Part shown: positions 28,935-39,158 of the stretch, in pieces
Position numbering within the stretch: position 1 is the first letter of the stretch
How the letters are laid out: the number at the start of each line of letters is the position of its first letter
Origin: a virus
Reading direction: 5' to 3' (one strand)
Length of the DNA stretch: 43,285 nucleotides
IMG/VR virus record: IMGVR_UViG_3300020193_000041
Location: 1-43,285 of that record
The notes under the pieces: model-generated
Told to the model about the DNA's origin: nothing
What the model saw: only the letters and a program-made list of their open reading frames with translations
The model's database searches: none
Made by a program: the position numbers and the translations under genes

Positions 28935-29621
28935 ATGAATCAGTACGTAATCACAGGCACAGGCGACTCGTCATTGTCAGTAATTGAGGACAGTCTGTCC
29001 GATTTGCCAACACCACGCACGTTTCACATCGTTGCAGAAAAGACAAATGCCGAAGGAATCTGTCGTGTTTACGATTGGTTGCTTGACAACGGTGAGAAGT
29101 TTGTTGCGTACCACAATGGCAACGCACCATCTATATTATGTGACAATGCGGTTACGTCGGTTGCCGACAACGACCCTCATTCAACGATTCTCAATGTTGC
29201 AAAAGCAGGAAAAATGGAAGTGCTCTATTTGTGGAACAACGCCGACAACGATGGTTCAACGAACCTTGTCACGTCGTTGATTGACAGAGGACTCACGGTC
29301 ATTGATTTGACGCAGGGTCTTACACCATTTCGTTTAGTTGAGAACTTAAAGAACGATACGGTTGATTCGCTTCCTCCAGTTACTCGCAAAGAGTACGAAG
29401 ACATGCCGATTGCAATGTTGCGTCAGCAGGCAAAAGCGCAGGGCGCAACAGACAAGGAGTTTGTGTCAAAGGAAACCATTATTCAATTTCTTACGGAGGC
29501 GTCAAAAGAAGAAAATGTTTCGGAAGACGACGCCGTAGTCGTAGTGGTTGTGTTCAAAGACCAAACGACAAAGACGTTCAAAAGCACAATTGAAAACATC
29601 AATCTCTTTTTTGGAAAATAG
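28935..29621 (+). CDS. Protein of unknown function with SAP-like C-terminal motif
   Basis: The protein has 228 residues, with AGGAGCACAAC before the ATG, shared with two other genes. The N-terminal 150 residues are alpha/beta with hydrophobic strands (TFHIVAEK, KMEVLYLWNNADND, GLTVIDL), suggesting a Rossmann-like fold. Then MPIAMLRQQAKAQGATDKEF, VSKETIIQFLTEA (about 155-190) resembles a SAP/HeH DNA-binding helix motif. The C-terminus has a Val-rich strand (DDAVVVVVVFKDQTTKTFKS). A DNA-associated role is possible. I do not recognise a named family. Confidence 0.55.
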   Translation: MNQYVITGTGDSSLSVIEDSLSDLPTPRTFHIVAEKTNAEGICRVYDWLLDNGEKFVAYHNGNAPSILCDNAVTSVADNDPHSTILNVAKAGKMEVLYLWNNADNDGSTNLVTSLIDRGLTVIDLTQGLTPFRLVENLKNDTVDSLPPVTRKEYEDMPIAMLRQQAKAQGATDKEFVSKETIIQFLTEASKEENVSEDDAVVVVVVFKDQTTKTFKSTIENINLFFGK

Positions 29622-29696
29622 CACGGGGGGACTGATGGCAGAAAGGAGGTGGAAAAACCACCAGCCCACACCCCGTGCGGCGTTGGACAACACGCC
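29622..29696 (+). other. Structured non-coding junction, possible RNA element
   Basis: Between the late genes and the replication genes lies an 8-bp perfect stem, GCACGGGG (29622-29629) with CCCCGTGC (29671-29678). It encloses a hairpin GGTGG-AAAAA-CCACC (29648-29662), extendable by GG/CC at 29645-29646 and 29665-29666. A second hairpin GGCG-TTG (29679-29685) with CAA-CA-CGCC (29688-29696) follows at once. AAGGAGGTG at 29644-29651 is a perfect Shine-Dalgarno core with no start codon at usable distance. It could be a terminator/attenuator or a small structured RNA. There is no long T-run. Confidence 0.5.
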
Positions 29697-29710
29697 TTCC
29701 TCAGTATAGC
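29683..29710 (+). promoter_or_regulatory. Weak promoter candidate for replication genes
   Basis: TTGGAC at 29683-29688 and TATAGC at 29705-29710 are 16 bases apart, upstream of the initiator gene start at 29738. Both boxes are imperfect and the -35 overlaps the second hairpin. It is listed because a promoter is expected at this module boundary. Confidence 0.25.
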
Positions 29711-29737
29711 AAACAACAAGTCATAAAGGATTCACCA

Positions 29738-30247
29738 TTGGCTAAAAGAAAGTTCTCAGGACCCTTTGTACCCTTTCCACGTTGGGTACTTCAATATCTT
29801 GGCAACGACTCAATAGGCAAGGTAGTATTATTAACAATACTCTTATACATGGATTCTGATACTCAAGAAGTCACCACCTCATACGGTCATGTGGCAAAGT
29901 TGACTGGTTACTCCCGTCGCACCGTTATCCGTGCCGTCAATCGCTTGGTATCTTCCAACGTCTTGATTCGTAAAGCACGCATGGGAAATAAGGGTCAGAT
30001 GAGCAATCGCTACATCGTAAACTTTAATAACCCGTCCACCCTAGTGTCTGTGGAGACACTACCCAGTGTCACGCCTGACACCCCTAGGGGTGACTCCCCA
30101 GACACTCCCCCCAGTGTCTCCCGTGACACCCAATCAAGAATAACTATAAACAAGAATAACCATAACAAGAATCTTCTTTTCAAGAAGGGAGAAAAAGTGA
30201 ACGATGTAACAAGTGGTTATCAAATTGATGGGGAGTTACTGAAGTGA
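29738..30247 (+). CDS. Replication initiator-like winged-helix protein
   Basis: The protein has 169 residues from a TTG at 29738 with AAAGGA at 29725-29730; a GTG at 29675 would add 21 residues but overlaps the structured region. The N-terminal half is a winged helix as in phage replication initiators: GKVVLLTILLYMDSDTQEVT, TSYGHVAKLTGYSRRTVIRA and VNRLVSSNVLIRK. Residues about 102-131 are Pro/Ser/Thr/Asp-rich and repetitive, encoded by a regular palindrome array. An Asn/Lys-rich part and a short C-terminus follow, possibly for loader/helicase contact. Downstream genes are loader, helicase and primase, so a lambda O-like role is likely. The gene ends with a GTGA overlap. Confidence 0.75.
   Translation: MAKRKFSGPFVPFPRWVLQYLGNDSIGKVVLLTILLYMDSDTQEVTTSYGHVAKLTGYSRRTVIRAVNRLVSSNVLIRKARMGNKGQMSNRYIVNFNNPSTLVSVETLPSVTPDTPRGDSPDTPPSVSRDTQSRITINKNNHNKNLLFKKGEKVNDVTSGYQIDGELLK
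30043..30129 (+). repeat. Array of four imperfect palindromes (iteron-like)
   Basis: Units: AGTGTCT-GTGG-AGACACT (30043-30060); GTGTCA-CGCC-TGACAC (30066-30081); GTGACT-CCCC-AGACAC (30090-30105); GTGTCT-CCCG-TGACAC (30114-30129). Arms are 6-7 bases, spacers always 4, and centres 22, 24 and 24 bases apart. An extra CCCCTAGGGG palindrome lies at 30081-30090. Confidence 0.8.
30131..30180 (+). repeat. AT-rich tract with CAAGAATAAC direct repeats
   Basis: CAAGAATAAC occurs at 30135-30144 and 30151-30160, and CAAGAATC at 30166-30173. The tract has 12 G/C in 50 bases, against a clearly GC-rich palindrome array just upstream. A candidate unwinding element. Confidence 0.7.
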
Positions 30248-30606
30248 GCGACGGTTGGGGGAAACCGCTTGGCGCCGACGAAGCCAGCACCATGACAGCC
30301 AAGATGACCACCAAGACCAAGAACACCATGCTTGCGTTGGTCTACCACTTCAACAAGTCCATTGAGTACCCGATGAACAGCGAGGTCAATGCCTTGGCCC
30401 TATCAAAGACGTTTAAAACCCTTCGTGACGGTGGAGCGTCGTATGATGAGTTGCATTCCATGATTGACAGATTCTTCTACGAGATAAAGAAAAAGCCATT
30501 GCCATACGACGTTCCATTGTGGACTGTTTTTATTAAACGTAAGGACAACCTGCTTTCGTGGGTAACGAGGAACAACTCCGATAATAATGTATCGGAGTGG
30601 ATATGA
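30244..30606 (+). CDS. Hypothetical protein in replication operon
   Basis: The protein has 120 residues with a GTG start coupled to the initiator stop (GTGA), preceded by GGGGAG. It is helical and soluble: MTTKTKNTMLALVYHFNKSI, then LSKTFKTLRDGGASYDELHS and MIDRFFYEIKKKPLPYDVPL. No motif is recognised. Its place between the initiator and the helicase loader suggests a primosome accessory factor; this is context only. Confidence 0.6.
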   Translation: MSDGWGKPLGADEASTMTAKMTTKTKNTMLALVYHFNKSIEYPMNSEVNALALSKTFKTLRDGGASYDELHSMIDRFFYEIKKKPLPYDVPLWTVFIKRKDNLLSWVTRNNSDNNVSEWI

Positions 30607-30839
30607 GTGTCTGGTGGTTCTTTGTTGATAAGTTGCAAACATTGTTTCGTGGTTCAATCGTTGACGACGAACCATTGAAAGAAACAGAGGATACTATTGA
30701 GTTGTATCACTGCACGATGTGTGGTACGTTGTTTGCAGACAAGGACTCATATTTGAGACACTTCCGAATGGACACCTGCACGGTTCCGCATACAATCTTT
30801 CCAGAAGAACCTTTTGACTTTAGGACGGACAATGACTGA
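30603..30839 (+). CDS. Small zinc-finger protein
   Basis: The protein has 78 residues from the ATG at 30603 (CGGAG at 30593-30597). A C2H2-like finger is visible: YHCTMCGTLFADKDSYLRHF, then R-M-D-T-C, giving C-x2-C...H-x5-C. The N-terminus is aromatic (MSVWWFFVDKLQ). It could bind DNA or a replication partner. It overlaps the end of the previous gene and the start of the helicase-loader gene. Confidence 0.65.
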   Translation: MSVWWFFVDKLQTLFRGSIVDDEPLKETEDTIELYHCTMCGTLFADKDSYLRHFRMDTCTVPHTIFPEEPFDFRTDND

Positions 30840-31467
30840 ATGGAAAGGCGCTCGTTATTGGAAGAACCGACCAGTAGAGGAGCGTTTGAAGAACGCACGT
30901 ATTCCCAAACGTTTTGAATTAATGACGTTGAGCAACTATGACAAGTCGGTGGGAGACCACGACGTCCATTACGCCGTTACTACATGGTTGAAGCACATTG
31001 ATGAGCATGTCCCCGCAGGAACTGGCTTGTATCTGTTTGGCGGTACGGGTGTCGGCAAAACGCATCTGGCAGTTGGTTTGTTAAAACAGGCGATAAACGA
31101 AAACACCCTCAGCGGTTATTTTATTCCAGTCACTACGTATATTGAGATGATGTATGACGAGTTGAATAATGACGGAGTGCTGCCCGATGAGTATGCTAAT
31201 CCATACATTTCTAAATACGTCAGGTCAGTTTACGACATTGTGGTGCTGGATGGACTTGGGGATGAGAACGAAACGGAGTTCACCACTCGTTCCATTTCTA
31301 ATCTTGTTTACCAACGTGCGAACGCCAATCTTCCCACAATCATCACTAGCCTTTACAACCCCAAGAAACTAACCATGCGCTATGGAGAACGATTTGTGTC
31401 AATACTGCAATCCGTTTGCCGACTTGTCCCCGTAGCGGGGACGGACCAACGTAATGCAAGGAAATGA
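30832..31467 (+). CDS. DnaC-like helicase loader (AAA+ ATPase)
   Basis: The protein has 211 residues from the ATG at 30832 (AGGAC upstream). It is of the DnaC/IstB type AAA+ family: YLFGGTGVGKTHLAVGLL holds Walker A, IVVLDGLGDE holds Walker B, and LPTIITSLYNPKKL holds sensor 1. The C-terminus RYGERFVSILQSVCRLVPV resembles the box VII region (R-I..L...C). It would load the DnaB-like helicase encoded one gene downstream onto origin DNA. Confidence 0.88.
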   Translation: MTEWKGARYWKNRPVEERLKNARIPKRFELMTLSNYDKSVGDHDVHYAVTTWLKHIDEHVPAGTGLYLFGGTGVGKTHLAVGLLKQAINENTLSGYFIPVTTYIEMMYDELNNDGVLPDEYANPYISKYVRSVYDIVVLDGLGDENETEFTTRSISNLVYQRANANLPTIITSLYNPKKLTMRYGERFVSILQSVCRLVPVAGTDQRNARK

Positions 31468-31885
31468 CATTGCGGAATATTCGGTAAGGGGACAGGGCGT
31501 TATATTTGAGGGCGTGTTGGCAACACTCCCCGACAGCCTTATCGCAAAATTCTATAAGCAACGCAACCAGTGGGAACGATATATACAAGCCGTTACACCG
31601 CATGAACTGTCGTTAAAAGCAATGATTGATTCCTCCGTTCGTTTGGGAATAGCAACTGACGTTTATACATTTGTTGACCCAAGGGCAGTCAATCCAATTG
31701 AACAGTGGTTGTCACGAAAGGGGATATCGGTTGCCGTGTTTTATTATATGAACGTAGAAGAGTTGGCGTACGATTTAAAGTTCCAACGCTCGTTGAAAAC
31801 AATCTACGTTGAAAATCAGGAACAAGCCTCTATCATTGGATTGCGTTCGCATGTGGTGGACAAACAGAAAGCGTGGATTGTGTAG
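31454..31885 (+). CDS. Unknown protein between loader and helicase
   Basis: The protein has 143 residues. The C-terminal part (MIDSSVRLGIATDVYTFVDP, PIEQWLSRKGISVAVFYYMN, YDLKFQRSLKTIYVENQEQA) reads as alternating helices and strands, like a truncated HAD-type fold, but catalytic Asp motifs are not evident. The last segment (IIGLRSHVVDKQKAWIV) fits a terminal strand. It overlaps both neighbours by 1-14 bases. A replisome-associated role is guessed from position. Confidence 0.55.
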   Translation: MQGNDIAEYSVRGQGVIFEGVLATLPDSLIAKFYKQRNQWERYIQAVTPHELSLKAMIDSSVRLGIATDVYTFVDPRAVNPIEQWLSRKGISVAVFYYMNVEELAYDLKFQRSLKTIYVENQEQASIIGLRSHVVDKQKAWIV

Positions 31886-33141
31886 TGGCAAGCACTGAAC
31901 ATTTTTTAATCAGCAAAGTCATCAAGGAAAACGAAATCGTTACAGTCGTGGAGGCTGGCTTAAAGCCACAGCACTTTTCCGCACAGTGGTCGGACGTCTG
32001 GCAGTGGTTAGTTACCTATTGGCGTGACCATAGCGCAGTCCCTTCAGAACGAGCGTTCAATCAAGAGTACGCAAACATTTCACTCATTGATGCATCACGT
32101 GAGCAGTTTTCTAATCTCATTGAAGAACTCATCACTTCGTATCGTCATCAAAAAATGGTTGAGACTCTTTCGTCAGCCGTTCCGCTGCTCAACGAAAATG
32201 AAACGCAGGAAGCAATCAACGTTATTGCACAGGGTCTGCAAGTTGCCTCCGCCGATACCGCACGGTTGAGGGACGTTAATCTTATTGAGACGTGGGAACA
32301 ACGTATTGAGCGCTACCTGCTGATGAAGGACACACCTAACGCAATTCGTGGTATTCCAACGGGTTTTCCTGGCCTTGACAGGCTCACTTCAGGATTGCGC
32401 CCTCAGCAATTGGTTACGCTGGTTGGTGAGGCAAAGAAAGGCAAGTCGCTCATTACCCTTATCATTTCCAACGCCATACACAATCACGGCAAGGTTCCCT
32501 TGTATATCTCGTTTGAGATGAGCACAGAAGAGCAATCAGCACGATATGACGCACTCGTCGCAGGCATCTCCCACACCAAATTGATGCGTGGAGACCTTAC
32601 CAATACGGATATTGAACAGATAAGAAAGGCAATATCCATTAGGAAGAACATGCATCCGTTTATTATTTCCGAAGACATATCATCTCTTACTACGGTCAGC
32701 GCCATTGCAGGCAAGATTCAACAACATAAACCCGACGTGTTAGTGATTGACGGCGTATACTTGATGGACGACGAAGAGGGAGAACCCAAAGGCTCACCAC
32801 AGGCACTGACGAACATTACACGTTCTTTAAAAAGACTGGCGCAGCGTTACGACATTCCAATCGTTGGAACTACGCAGGTGCTCAGTTGGAAACTAGGTAA
32901 TCGTAAGAGCAGGCAAATTACCGCCGACGCCATCGGCTACACGTCCTCGTTTGCACAGGACTCAGACTTGGTTATCGGTGTTGAAGCCGACCCAGACATT
33001 GATGACCAAGCAATATTGCGTATCGTACTTGCACGAACGGCGCCAAGGGGTGAAGTAAAAATTAAATGGGATTGGCATAATATGGACTTTTCAGAAGTGG
33101 AGGAAAGCGACCATGATGACAAAGACAACTGGTATTACTAA
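31885..33141 (+). CDS. DnaB-like replicative helicase
   Basis: The protein has 418 residues from the GTG at 31885, overlapping the previous stop (TAGTG); a GTG at 31873 would add four residues. The N-terminal helical domain (about 1-120) is followed by the RecA-like domain. IRGIPTGFPGLDRLTSGLRP is the linker signature, LVGEAKKGKSL holds Walker A (about 181-188), and PDVLVIDGVYLMD holds Walker B. PIVGTTQVLSWK holds motif H3 (T-Q), and the end has R-I-V-L-A-R-T-A-P-R-G-E. It unwinds DNA at the fork and works with the loader and primase. Confidence 0.93.
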   Translation: MASTEHFLISKVIKENEIVTVVEAGLKPQHFSAQWSDVWQWLVTYWRDHSAVPSERAFNQEYANISLIDASREQFSNLIEELITSYRHQKMVETLSSAVPLLNENETQEAINVIAQGLQVASADTARLRDVNLIETWEQRIERYLLMKDTPNAIRGIPTGFPGLDRLTSGLRPQQLVTLVGEAKKGKSLITLIISNAIHNHGKVPLYISFEMSTEEQSARYDALVAGISHTKLMRGDLTNTDIEQIRKAISIRKNMHPFIISEDISSLTTVSAIAGKIQQHKPDVLVIDGVYLMDDEEGEPKGSPQALTNITRSLKRLAQRYDIPIVGTTQVLSWKLGNRKSRQITADAIGYTSSFAQDSDLVIGVEADPDIDDQAILRIVLARTAPRGEVKIKWDWHNMDFSEVEESDHDDKDNWYY

Positions 33142-34036
33142 CTTTCGTGACGTCCTTGACGCATTAGGCGTGGACGTTCGGCGTGAGTCTGGTAACGAGA
33201 TTATTGCTTGCTGTCCAGTCCACGAAAAACGCACTGGCAAACCAGACAACTCCCCATCATGGTCAATGAACGCAAGCACTGGTTTGTGGCTGTGTCATTC
33301 GTGCGGGGCACGGGGCAACCTTCCTCAATTGATTGCCGAAGTAACAGGAAGTTACGAGTCGGTATCAAGCGTTTACAATTTGTTGCTTAACACGGGCTTG
33401 GAGCAATTGATAAAACCAAAGGTCATCAAAGACACAACCACAGCGGATTGGAAGTTGTACATGTCGTACGACCAACCACCGTATGAAGAACTATTGAAAC
33501 GCCGAATCAAAGTCCCCGTTGCTAACAAATATGGCATTCGTTGGGCTACGCATCGTAAGGCATGGATTATTCCTATCATTTCACCAAGTGGTGATTTGAT
33601 GGGCTGGCAAGAGAAGTCACCACATGGCGTGCTCAACCAGCCGACTGGGGTTAGTAAATCAGAAACGTTGTTTGGCATTGATAGGTTCTCCTCACGGGTA
33701 GGCATTTTGGTGGAATCACCGCTGGACGTGGCTAGGTTTTCATCGTCGTTCAACGGCATCCAATGCCTTGCTAGTTTTGGGGTACAGGTGAGCAATAAAC
33801 AGTTACAGTTGTTGGAATCATCGTGCGATGCCCTTATTGTGGCACTGGACAACGATGAGGCAGGAATTACTGTTGGTAAGAAACTAATGACTGTTTTACC
33901 ATCGTTCAGGTACGGTGTAAAATGGATGAAGTATTCTCATACCAAAGCCAAAGACATTGGAGAGATGGACGATTCAGAATTAGCGGTTGCCGTGAAGCAA
34001 GCAACTGCTTTACCATGGTGGATTGATGACGTTTAA
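33113..34036 (+). CDS. DNA primase (zinc-binding plus TOPRIM)
   Basis: The protein has 307 residues. The N-terminal zinc finger is CCPVH (C34, H37) and CHSCG (C61, C64). The catalytic TOPRIM domain is visible as VGILVESPLDVARF (E201, D205) and ALDNDEAG (D246, D248). It is shorter than DnaG and has no C-terminal helicase-binding domain that I can see. It makes RNA primers for polymerase. GGAGG at 33099-33103 supports the ATG at 33113. It overlaps the helicase gene by 29 bases. Confidence 0.92.
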   Translation: MMTKTTGITNFRDVLDALGVDVRRESGNEIIACCPVHEKRTGKPDNSPSWSMNASTGLWLCHSCGARGNLPQLIAEVTGSYESVSSVYNLLLNTGLEQLIKPKVIKDTTTADWKLYMSYDQPPYEELLKRRIKVPVANKYGIRWATHRKAWIIPIISPSGDLMGWQEKSPHGVLNQPTGVSKSETLFGIDRFSSRVGILVESPLDVARFSSSFNGIQCLASFGVQVSNKQLQLLESSCDALIVALDNDEAGITVGKKLMTVLPSFRYGVKWMKYSHTKAKDIGEMDDSELAVAVKQATALPWWIDDV

Positions 34037-37097: not shown

Positions 37098-39158
37098 ATG
37101 GGGAGTTCAATTCCTCCCGTCGTAACCACTCTCCAAGAACTGGATGAGTTGATTGAAGTAGTTCGTGGGGTTGGGGCATTTGCCTTTGACGTGGAAACAC
37201 AAACCACGTTGGAGCATCACCCTGACCTTATGGAATACTTGGAAAAGGATTTCCAAGAGCATATCAAGGGTTTAAAAAATAAGAATCCTGACATACTTCA
37301 ACGAGCACACGATAACCTTACCGAACAGTATTTAAAAAACACTGCTGTCAATCCGTTACGTAACGAAGTCTTTTGGATAGGCATTGCCACCAACGGCAGG
37401 TCGTGGGCAATTCCGATGGGACACCGAATCGGAATAATCGTAGAAAAAGAAGAAGTGGGTGACGGTAGTACGGTTCCCCCTACTGGCTTTCGTAAGGTGC
37501 TGAAAAACGGTCAAGAGTCAATGGCTAAGGCTCGTTACGTAAAGCCTGCCGTGTACAAAGAACCACCCAAGCAGTTGTCACGAAGCGAGGTCTTTGAGCG
37601 TCTGCGTCCACTTTTCTTCAGCGACTTTGTAAAGATTGGACATAACGTCAAGTTTGATGCTCGGTCAATTTCAAAGTATTACGGTGAGGTACCACCAGGA
37701 CCGTACGTTGACACGATGATTACCCAACACATCGTGAACGAAAGCCTTTCCAATTACTCATTGGAAACGCTGATTGAGACCAATTACGGGGGTCATAAGG
37801 CTTACGAGAATGGCGGCAAGTTAGGTAAAACCGTTTCAACCACTCCGTTTGACGCCACCGCTCTGTACGTACATAGGGACTCACGTTGGACATGGTTGTT
37901 GTACAAACGATTGCTTAAAAAGGTTAATGCCCACGCTGACCTTACCAAAGTATTGGAACTTGACAACCACGTGTTGGAAGTATTGATGCACATTGAGAAC
38001 GAGGGGATTCCCGTAGACGCCACCAACCTGTCGGCGTTGAGCACTGAGTTGGACAAGGAGATGCAGGACACTCTTAATTCCATTCTTTCGTATGCCCCAG
38101 TTGGTTTTAATCCTGATTCCAACAAACATAAACAGACGTTATTGTTTTCCAAGAAGTCTGAAGGCGGTCTTGGACTAAAGCCATACAAGATGACGGGGAA
38201 GGGAGCACCATCGGTTGACGAAGAGTCTTTAAAGAGTATAAAAAACAAACATCCCGTTGTTCCAATGCTGCTGTCTTGGGCGGAGTTACAAAAATTAAAG
38301 AGCACGTATGTAGACGGTTTGTTGCCCAAGTTGTACAAGGGTCGGCTCCACCCATCGTTCCACCTGCACAGAACAACCACTGGTCGTTTGTCGTCGTCAG
38401 ACCCAAACCTCCAAAACATTCCACGAACATCAAACATCCGTAAGTTGTTCGTAGCCGATGGAACCAACGTTCTTCTGGTTGCCGACTACGACCAGATTGA
38501 ACTACGTATTATGGCGATGTTTAGTCAAGACAGCATATTGCTTCATACGTTTTCCAACGATGAGGACATTCACACGGCAACGGCATCTGCGGTGTTCAAG
38601 AAGAATCCAAAGGATGTAACTTCGGAAGAACGTCAAATTGGAAAAGGTGTTAACTTTTTAACCGCATACGGGGGAGGTTCAATTAAACTTGCCCGTGTCA
38701 CTGGCATTTCTGAAAATGATGCACAGGAAATCCTCAGAAGTTATTACAGGACGTTTTCCGAACTCACGGAATGGAAACATACCCTTGTAGAGAAAGCCCG
38801 CAAAGACGGTTACGTCAGTACGCTGTACGGGCGTCGGCGTCGTCTTCCAGACCTGCGTTCACCTAATAAAGAACTGCGGGCACGTGCAGAGCGTCAGGCA
38901 GTGAACGCCACCGTGCAGGGAACAGCCGCCGACCTTTGTAAACAAGCAATGGTTAATGTTTACCACGCCATGAAGGATACGAGTGTAAAATTGGTAGTAC
39001 AAGTACACGACGAACTTGTGGCTACTGTAAAACAAGATGAGGCACTAACGATAATCAAGCCGTTCCTAGAAGCAATGGGAGACGGCAGAGTTTTAGACAA
39101 GGTTCCCATCAAAGTTTCGCACCGCTTTGCAAAGAGTTGGGCGGAGGCAAAGGATTAA
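37098..39158 (+). CDS. DNA polymerase I-type (PolA) with 3'-5' exonuclease
   Basis: The protein has 686 residues. The exonuclease domain shows FDVETQTT (D31, E33), IGHNVKFDARS and the later YVDTMITQHIVNE. The polymerase domain shows RTTTGRLSSSDPNLQNIP, motif A VADYDQIELRIMAMFS, motif B ERQIGKGVNFLTAYGG and motif C VQVHDELV. Motif A has Asp where many enzymes have Ser (DYSQIELR). There is no 5'-3' exonuclease. It is the likely replicative polymerase. It starts three bases after the SSB stop. Confidence 0.95.
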   Translation: MGSSIPPVVTTLQELDELIEVVRGVGAFAFDVETQTTLEHHPDLMEYLEKDFQEHIKGLKNKNPDILQRAHDNLTEQYLKNTAVNPLRNEVFWIGIATNGRSWAIPMGHRIGIIVEKEEVGDGSTVPPTGFRKVLKNGQESMAKARYVKPAVYKEPPKQLSRSEVFERLRPLFFSDFVKIGHNVKFDARSISKYYGEVPPGPYVDTMITQHIVNESLSNYSLETLIETNYGGHKAYENGGKLGKTVSTTPFDATALYVHRDSRWTWLLYKRLLKKVNAHADLTKVLELDNHVLEVLMHIENEGIPVDATNLSALSTELDKEMQDTLNSILSYAPVGFNPDSNKHKQTLLFSKKSEGGLGLKPYKMTGKGAPSVDEESLKSIKNKHPVVPMLLSWAELQKLKSTYVDGLLPKLYKGRLHPSFHLHRTTTGRLSSSDPNLQNIPRTSNIRKLFVADGTNVLLVADYDQIELRIMAMFSQDSILLHTFSNDEDIHTATASAVFKKNPKDVTSEERQIGKGVNFLTAYGGGSIKLARVTGISENDAQEILRSYYRTFSELTEWKHTLVEKARKDGYVSTLYGRRRRLPDLRSPNKELRARAERQAVNATVQGTAADLCKQAMVNVYHAMKDTSVKLVVQVHDELVATVKQDEALTIIKPFLEAMGDGRVLDKVPIKVSHRFAKSWAEAKD

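Follow-up and report, generated by a model that had tools for sequence, protein, structure and literature searches.

A stretch of 43,285 bases, the IMG/VR virus record IMGVR_UViG_3300020193_000041 (hereafter, the window), very probably contains, as judged from sequence comparisons, an intragenic theta-type replication origin of the lambda/SPP1 kind, situated within the gene for an O-like replication initiator. This gene (29738..30247, plus strand) begins with a TTG start codon, encodes a protein of 169 amino acids (aa) and is assigned by PHROG and Pfam HTH_36 matches and an AlphaFold model. Its codons 103-130 contain four 16-bp sites of the pattern GTGWC-N6-GACAC (W being A or T), designated iterons, followed by an A-rich putative unwinding element (30130..30185, plus strand) recognized by its duplex stability, the positions and excess of AAGA motifs and a synonymous change of only 7%. 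The reading is built on the array, the tract, selection at the level of DNA, the gene neighbourhood and the homology of the initiator. By analogy with characterized systems, a dimer of the winged-helix initiator would bind each of the four GTGWC-N6-GWCAC iterons in its own gene, the initiator-iteron complex would melt the adjoining A-rich tract, the DnaC-like loader would put the phage DnaB-like helicase on the opened strand, and the phage primase and polymerase would act next, with the direction of replication proposed on the same analogy.

Iteron array, A-rich tract and initiator protein

The iterons, which are not assigned to a strand, start at 30044, 30066, 30090 and 30114, giving a spacing of 22/24/24, and share a 4-bp centre. 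Iteron 1 (GTGTCTGTGGAGACAC, 30044-30059) is a perfect palindrome with 7-bp arms when positions 30043/30060 are counted, and iteron 2 (GTGTCACGCCTGACAC, 30066-30081) is a perfect palindrome with 6-bp arms, while iteron 3 (GTGACTCCCCAGACAC, 30090-30105) carries one A.A mismatch and iteron 4 (GTGTCTCCCGTGACAC, 30114-30129) one T.T mismatch. The sequence and the repeat analysis thus confirm a preliminary description of four palindromes with 6-7 base arms and 4-base centres placed 22-24 bases apart. That description had also noted a following AT-rich tract of about 50 bases with direct repeats, which is borne out by two 16-bp repeats of 88% identity (AATCAAGAATAACTAT / AAACAAGAATAACCAT). On a 50-bp scale no place within 28935-31900 is less stable than this tract, which ranks among the lowest 0.2% of the window. 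No exact iteron site occurs outside the array in the 43-kb window, and when nine initiator genes of the family were recoded synonymously with phage codon usage, 5,000 times each, four sites were obtained in none of the 45,000 recodings (maximum 3, typically 0 or 1). With the exact sites of the window confined to the array and recodings that never reach four, the array cannot be ascribed to chance.

The initiator product matches eleven PHROG families, nearly all labelled replication initiation or O-like, among them PHROG 428, 270, 678 and 391 (replication initiation, O-like; best expectation value (E) 3e-13), and Pfam HTH_36 (E 4.9e-8). Its AlphaFold model is a winged helix covering residues 1-99, followed by a disordered linker and tail (101-169), with residues 101-162 at a predicted local distance difference test score (pLDDT) below 50. 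The part encoded by the array lies in this linker, which is rich in Ser, Thr, Pro and Asp, contains peptide repeats such as SVTGDT and is predicted to be disordered in the same model. A fold search of the PDB with the initiator returned generic winged helices only, none at E <0.001, and a sequence search of solved structures gave no match. The disordered C-terminal tail has a conserved end, GYxID/YEDxExDxR, which may serve as a contact for the loader or helicase; a domain contacting the loader was not found in the protein.

As a separate observation, the tail of the window initiator, GYQIDGELLK (30215-30247), is related to a tail motif shared by relatives, and within the window only the initiator has such a tail. 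In several relatives (L049-L060) the motif Y[DE]D[LIV]xxDxR[LI] ends both the initiator and the product of the next gene. A tail common to the two proteins suggests, at the sequence level, that both dock on one partner.

Conservation of the array in relatives

Scans of IMG/VR with the initiator protein and its profile yielded 37 loci, 22 of them already in the first scan, whose initiators are 40-93% identical to that of the window, one identical contig aside. Of the complete initiator genes in these protein-found relatives, only that of L023 lacks the array; in L003, L004 and L053 it consists of three strict sites and one degenerate site. Most relatives have the spacing 22/24/24; it is 24/22/24 in L020-L022 and 22/24/23 in L055, L056, L059 and L060, so that phages differ in the frame in which a given iteron is translated. 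When degenerate codons with an identical amino acid were compared among twelve aligned genes, synonymous change was highest in the winged-helix part (46.5%) and the tail (37%), lower in the array (22%) and lowest in the A-rich tract (6.8%). The array-encoded peptide, by contrast, varies twice as much in its amino acids as the winged-helix part. The palindromes are hence kept while the linker has changed, the reverse of the pattern that the preliminary description had named as contradicting it, namely loss of the palindromes from related phages that retain the linker. Its proposal of a lambda-like origin inside the initiator gene appears well supported by these relatives, by the O-like families and by the lambda-like spacing of the iterons.

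The composition of the sites is informative as well. At the fourth base of the half-site, the choice of A or T on the left is independent of that on the right (Fisher p 0.72), as expected if two monomers each recognize one half-site in a protein-DNA interaction. In L016, seven of the eight half-sites are changed in concert from GTGTC to GTATC, and position 61 in the recognition helix is Ile there and Arg in the window initiator. This pairing of Ile61 with GTATC iterons is suggestive of a matched change in protein and site, although it is a single case and the pattern-found loci described next are biased to GTGWC.

A DNA-only search of IMG/VR, with the pattern iteron 4 + CCAANN + AAGA and no coding condition, matched 102 stretches. 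Among the 80 loci that could be read, at least three iterons were found in 71 and at least four in 60, and 69 of the 80 lie in an open frame with blastp similarity to the window initiator. New spacing classes (30/23/25) were observed among them. The matches in L080, L088, L153 and L132 lie inside longer O-like initiators of about 270-290 aa, and those of L080 and L132 share their PHROG replication families with the window initiator. About six matches without a further iteron look like chance, except for L102, which belongs to the contig of L023.

AAGA series in the A-rich tract

In the window, AAGA occurs at +6, +22, +37 and +52 nucleotides (nt) after iteron 4. The first copy lies exactly 6 nt past the last iteron in every protein-found array checked, with more copies within the next 50 nt; in pattern-found loci the position of the first AAGA is set by the search pattern and is hence no evidence. 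Over 21 representative genes, 90 copies were counted vs 32 expected by synonymous recoding (maximum of 2,000 sums, 46), although these genes are related and the comparison is not a test on independent samples. Subject to the same limitation, AAG outnumbers AAA by 90 to 14 among lysine codons of the tract, as compared with 89 to 90 elsewhere in the gene (Fisher p 2e-10), and the AAGA copies recur at irregular steps regardless of the codon frame. In the A-rich tract of lambda, taken as a control, AAGA also begins 6 nt after the annotated iteron 4 and further copies follow, which may be a coincidence in so A-rich a tract; the tract of Escherichia phage mEp010 has no AAGA at +6. It is conceivable, if somewhat doubtful, that the series acts in phages as the DnaA-trio does in bacteria, namely as a sequence-specific element for strand capture, which the initiator, the loader or the helicase would read on the opened strand. 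The fixed register of the series is the part of this system that may be new.

Weighing of the proposed origin and alternative explanations

Several observations weigh against an origin at this place. About nine other places in the window equal the A-rich tract in instability, and the tract is thus not unique in this respect. The guanine-cytosine (GC) skew stays weakly positive along almost the whole window, does not switch at 30 kb and is uninformative. The initiator is far shorter than lambda O, and no domain for binding a partner was detected in it. Finally, in L023 (6001-6449) a single iteron is left and a frameshift truncates the initiator while the A-rich tract is intact, which may be either a genuine loss of DNA between iterons or the product of a collapsed assembly.

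Among other explanations, the one that survives best, though it is improbable, is an operator array, in which the winged-helix protein would use the four sites for autoregulation of its operon and not for starting replication. The winged-helix fold resembles that of transcription regulators and an array of this kind could act as a roadblock to transcription. However, the sites are about 300 bp inside the gene, neither the vicinity of the promoter nor the rest of the window contains another, and the closest families of the protein are replication initiators. Furthermore, the conserved A-rich tract begins at a fixed 6 nt and the downstream genes encode a replisome. The operator reading loses further weight from the relatives, in which 136 of 138 strict sites (387 kb) fall within the array and the two elsewhere do not exceed chance (roughly 1.5 expected).

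RNA hairpins in the mRNA, serving as antitermination or attenuation sites, are very unlikely. Perfect palindromes could fold in RNA, but 31 of 82 sites carry an A.A or T.T mismatch, independently of the partner side, and such free tolerance is not expected of a stem; in L054 and L057 every iteron has an A.A mismatch, and no T-run follows the array. Similarly small is the probability of a partition (centromere-like) or packaging site: iteron-like arrays occur at partition sites too, but no partition genes were present among the neighbours examined, and the array lies in the replication module in all relatives, within a gene whose product is O-like. The least probable of all, a Ser/Thr/Pro/Asp linker whose repeated codons merely look palindromic, is excluded as a protein-only explanation because the same iterons are translated in different frames and synonymous change in the array is halved while the peptide varies, and it agrees neither with the recodings nor with the predicted disorder of the linker.

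Replication gene neighbourhood

The genes downstream of the initiator form a replication cluster. The start codon of the next gene (30244..30606, plus strand) overlaps the stop codon of the initiator gene; its 120-aa product, all-helical in a predicted model, is kept with the initiator in relatives, and no family match was found for it. The idea that this protein is a split-off C-terminal domain of O was rejected, as neither family nor fold gave support. It is followed by a gene for an 80-aa zinc-finger-like protein (30597-30839), which has a weak C2H2 match, belongs to the replication cluster and was not detected in more distant relatives. The DnaC-like helicase loader (30838..31467, open reading frame listed from 30814, plus strand) is assigned by phrog_50 (E 9.7e-33) and synteny, and the DnaB-like replicative helicase (31873..33141, plus strand) by phrog_19 (E 5e-63) and DnaB_C (9.7e-31). 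Family matches identify a DnaG-type primase with a CHC2 zinc finger and a Toprim domain (33113..34036, plus strand), and a DNA polymerase I-type polymerase is encoded at 37098..39158 on the plus strand. The preliminary description was accordingly right about a winged-helix gene with loader, helicase and primase genes nearby, except that two short genes separate the initiator from the loader.

In all loci that are long enough the order is initiator, 120-aa protein, loader, 143-aa protein, DnaB-like helicase, primase and SNF2-type helicase. The nearest cultured helicase and polymerase are those of Streptomyces phages, at about 32-34% identity, and in the neighbourhoods of these genes loader, helicase and primase are present with no annotated O-like gene. 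A prophage search of GTDB genomes for a host found no relative.

Between the upstream gene and the initiator, a conserved RNA-like element was observed at 29620-29700, composed of an outer stem GCACGGGG/CCCCGTGC and an inner stem GAAAGGAGGT...CCAGCCC followed by the hairpin GGCGTTGGACAACACGCC. In the 11 aligned sequences the element precedes the last iteron by 415-494 bp; it has compensatory changes at 5 of 20 predicted pairs and no Rfam match, and is possibly a leader regulating the initiator.

Comparison with known origins

The arrangement offers a base-resolution, easily testable candidate origin for a widespread, uncultivated phage group, in which one DNA signal is preserved while its coding meaning, reading frame included, drifts. 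A GTGWC half-site common to distant O-like proteins, together with the AAGA register, provides a starting point for learning how initiators of the O type select their iterons and open the DNA. A text search of the literature for GTGTCAC with origin and iteron found no paper, which is a weak negative as printed sequence is poorly indexed.

A close known counterpart of the array is in gene O of mEp010, a phage cultured in E. coli K-12; the product of this gene is 37.6% identical over 113 aa to the window initiator. The gene contains four sites with GTGWC half-sites at a spacing of 23/22/23 in the corresponding place of the gene (L061 4239-4321). However, these sites are of 15 bp with an N5 centre, and the protein has 330 aa with a C-terminal extension. 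The paper on the mEp010 genome does not mention iterons (PMC11893012).

The origin oriL of Bacillus phage SPP1 lies within gene 38 and is bound by gp38; for replication to start, gp39 as loader and gp40 as helicase are needed (PMC6316719). The likeness to the window, drawn from this published description, consists in a phage-encoded loader and DnaB-type helicase (PMC6316719). SPP1 differs in having a second origin, oriR, and in using the host primase and polymerase; no second array of this type was found in the 43-kb window.

In lambda, O binds to its iterons as dimers, and the DNA opens at the neighbouring A+T-rich tract (PMC5043065; PMC7466680). The lambda origin likewise has four palindromic iterons about 20-24 bp apart (annotated at 20/24/23) inside the initiator gene, an A-rich tract and a loader gene, and the window initiator falls in O-like families. 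The lambda iteron, however, is ATCCCTC...GAGGGA and not GTGWC-N6-GWCAC, O has 299 aa (coding sequence of 900 bp) as compared to 169 aa, and lambda uses the helicase, primase and polymerase of its host, whereas the phage of the window has a DnaC-like loader and its own three enzymes. The type of origin is itself textbook, and it is the iteron sequence, the length of the initiator and the phage-coded replisome that set it apart from lambda.
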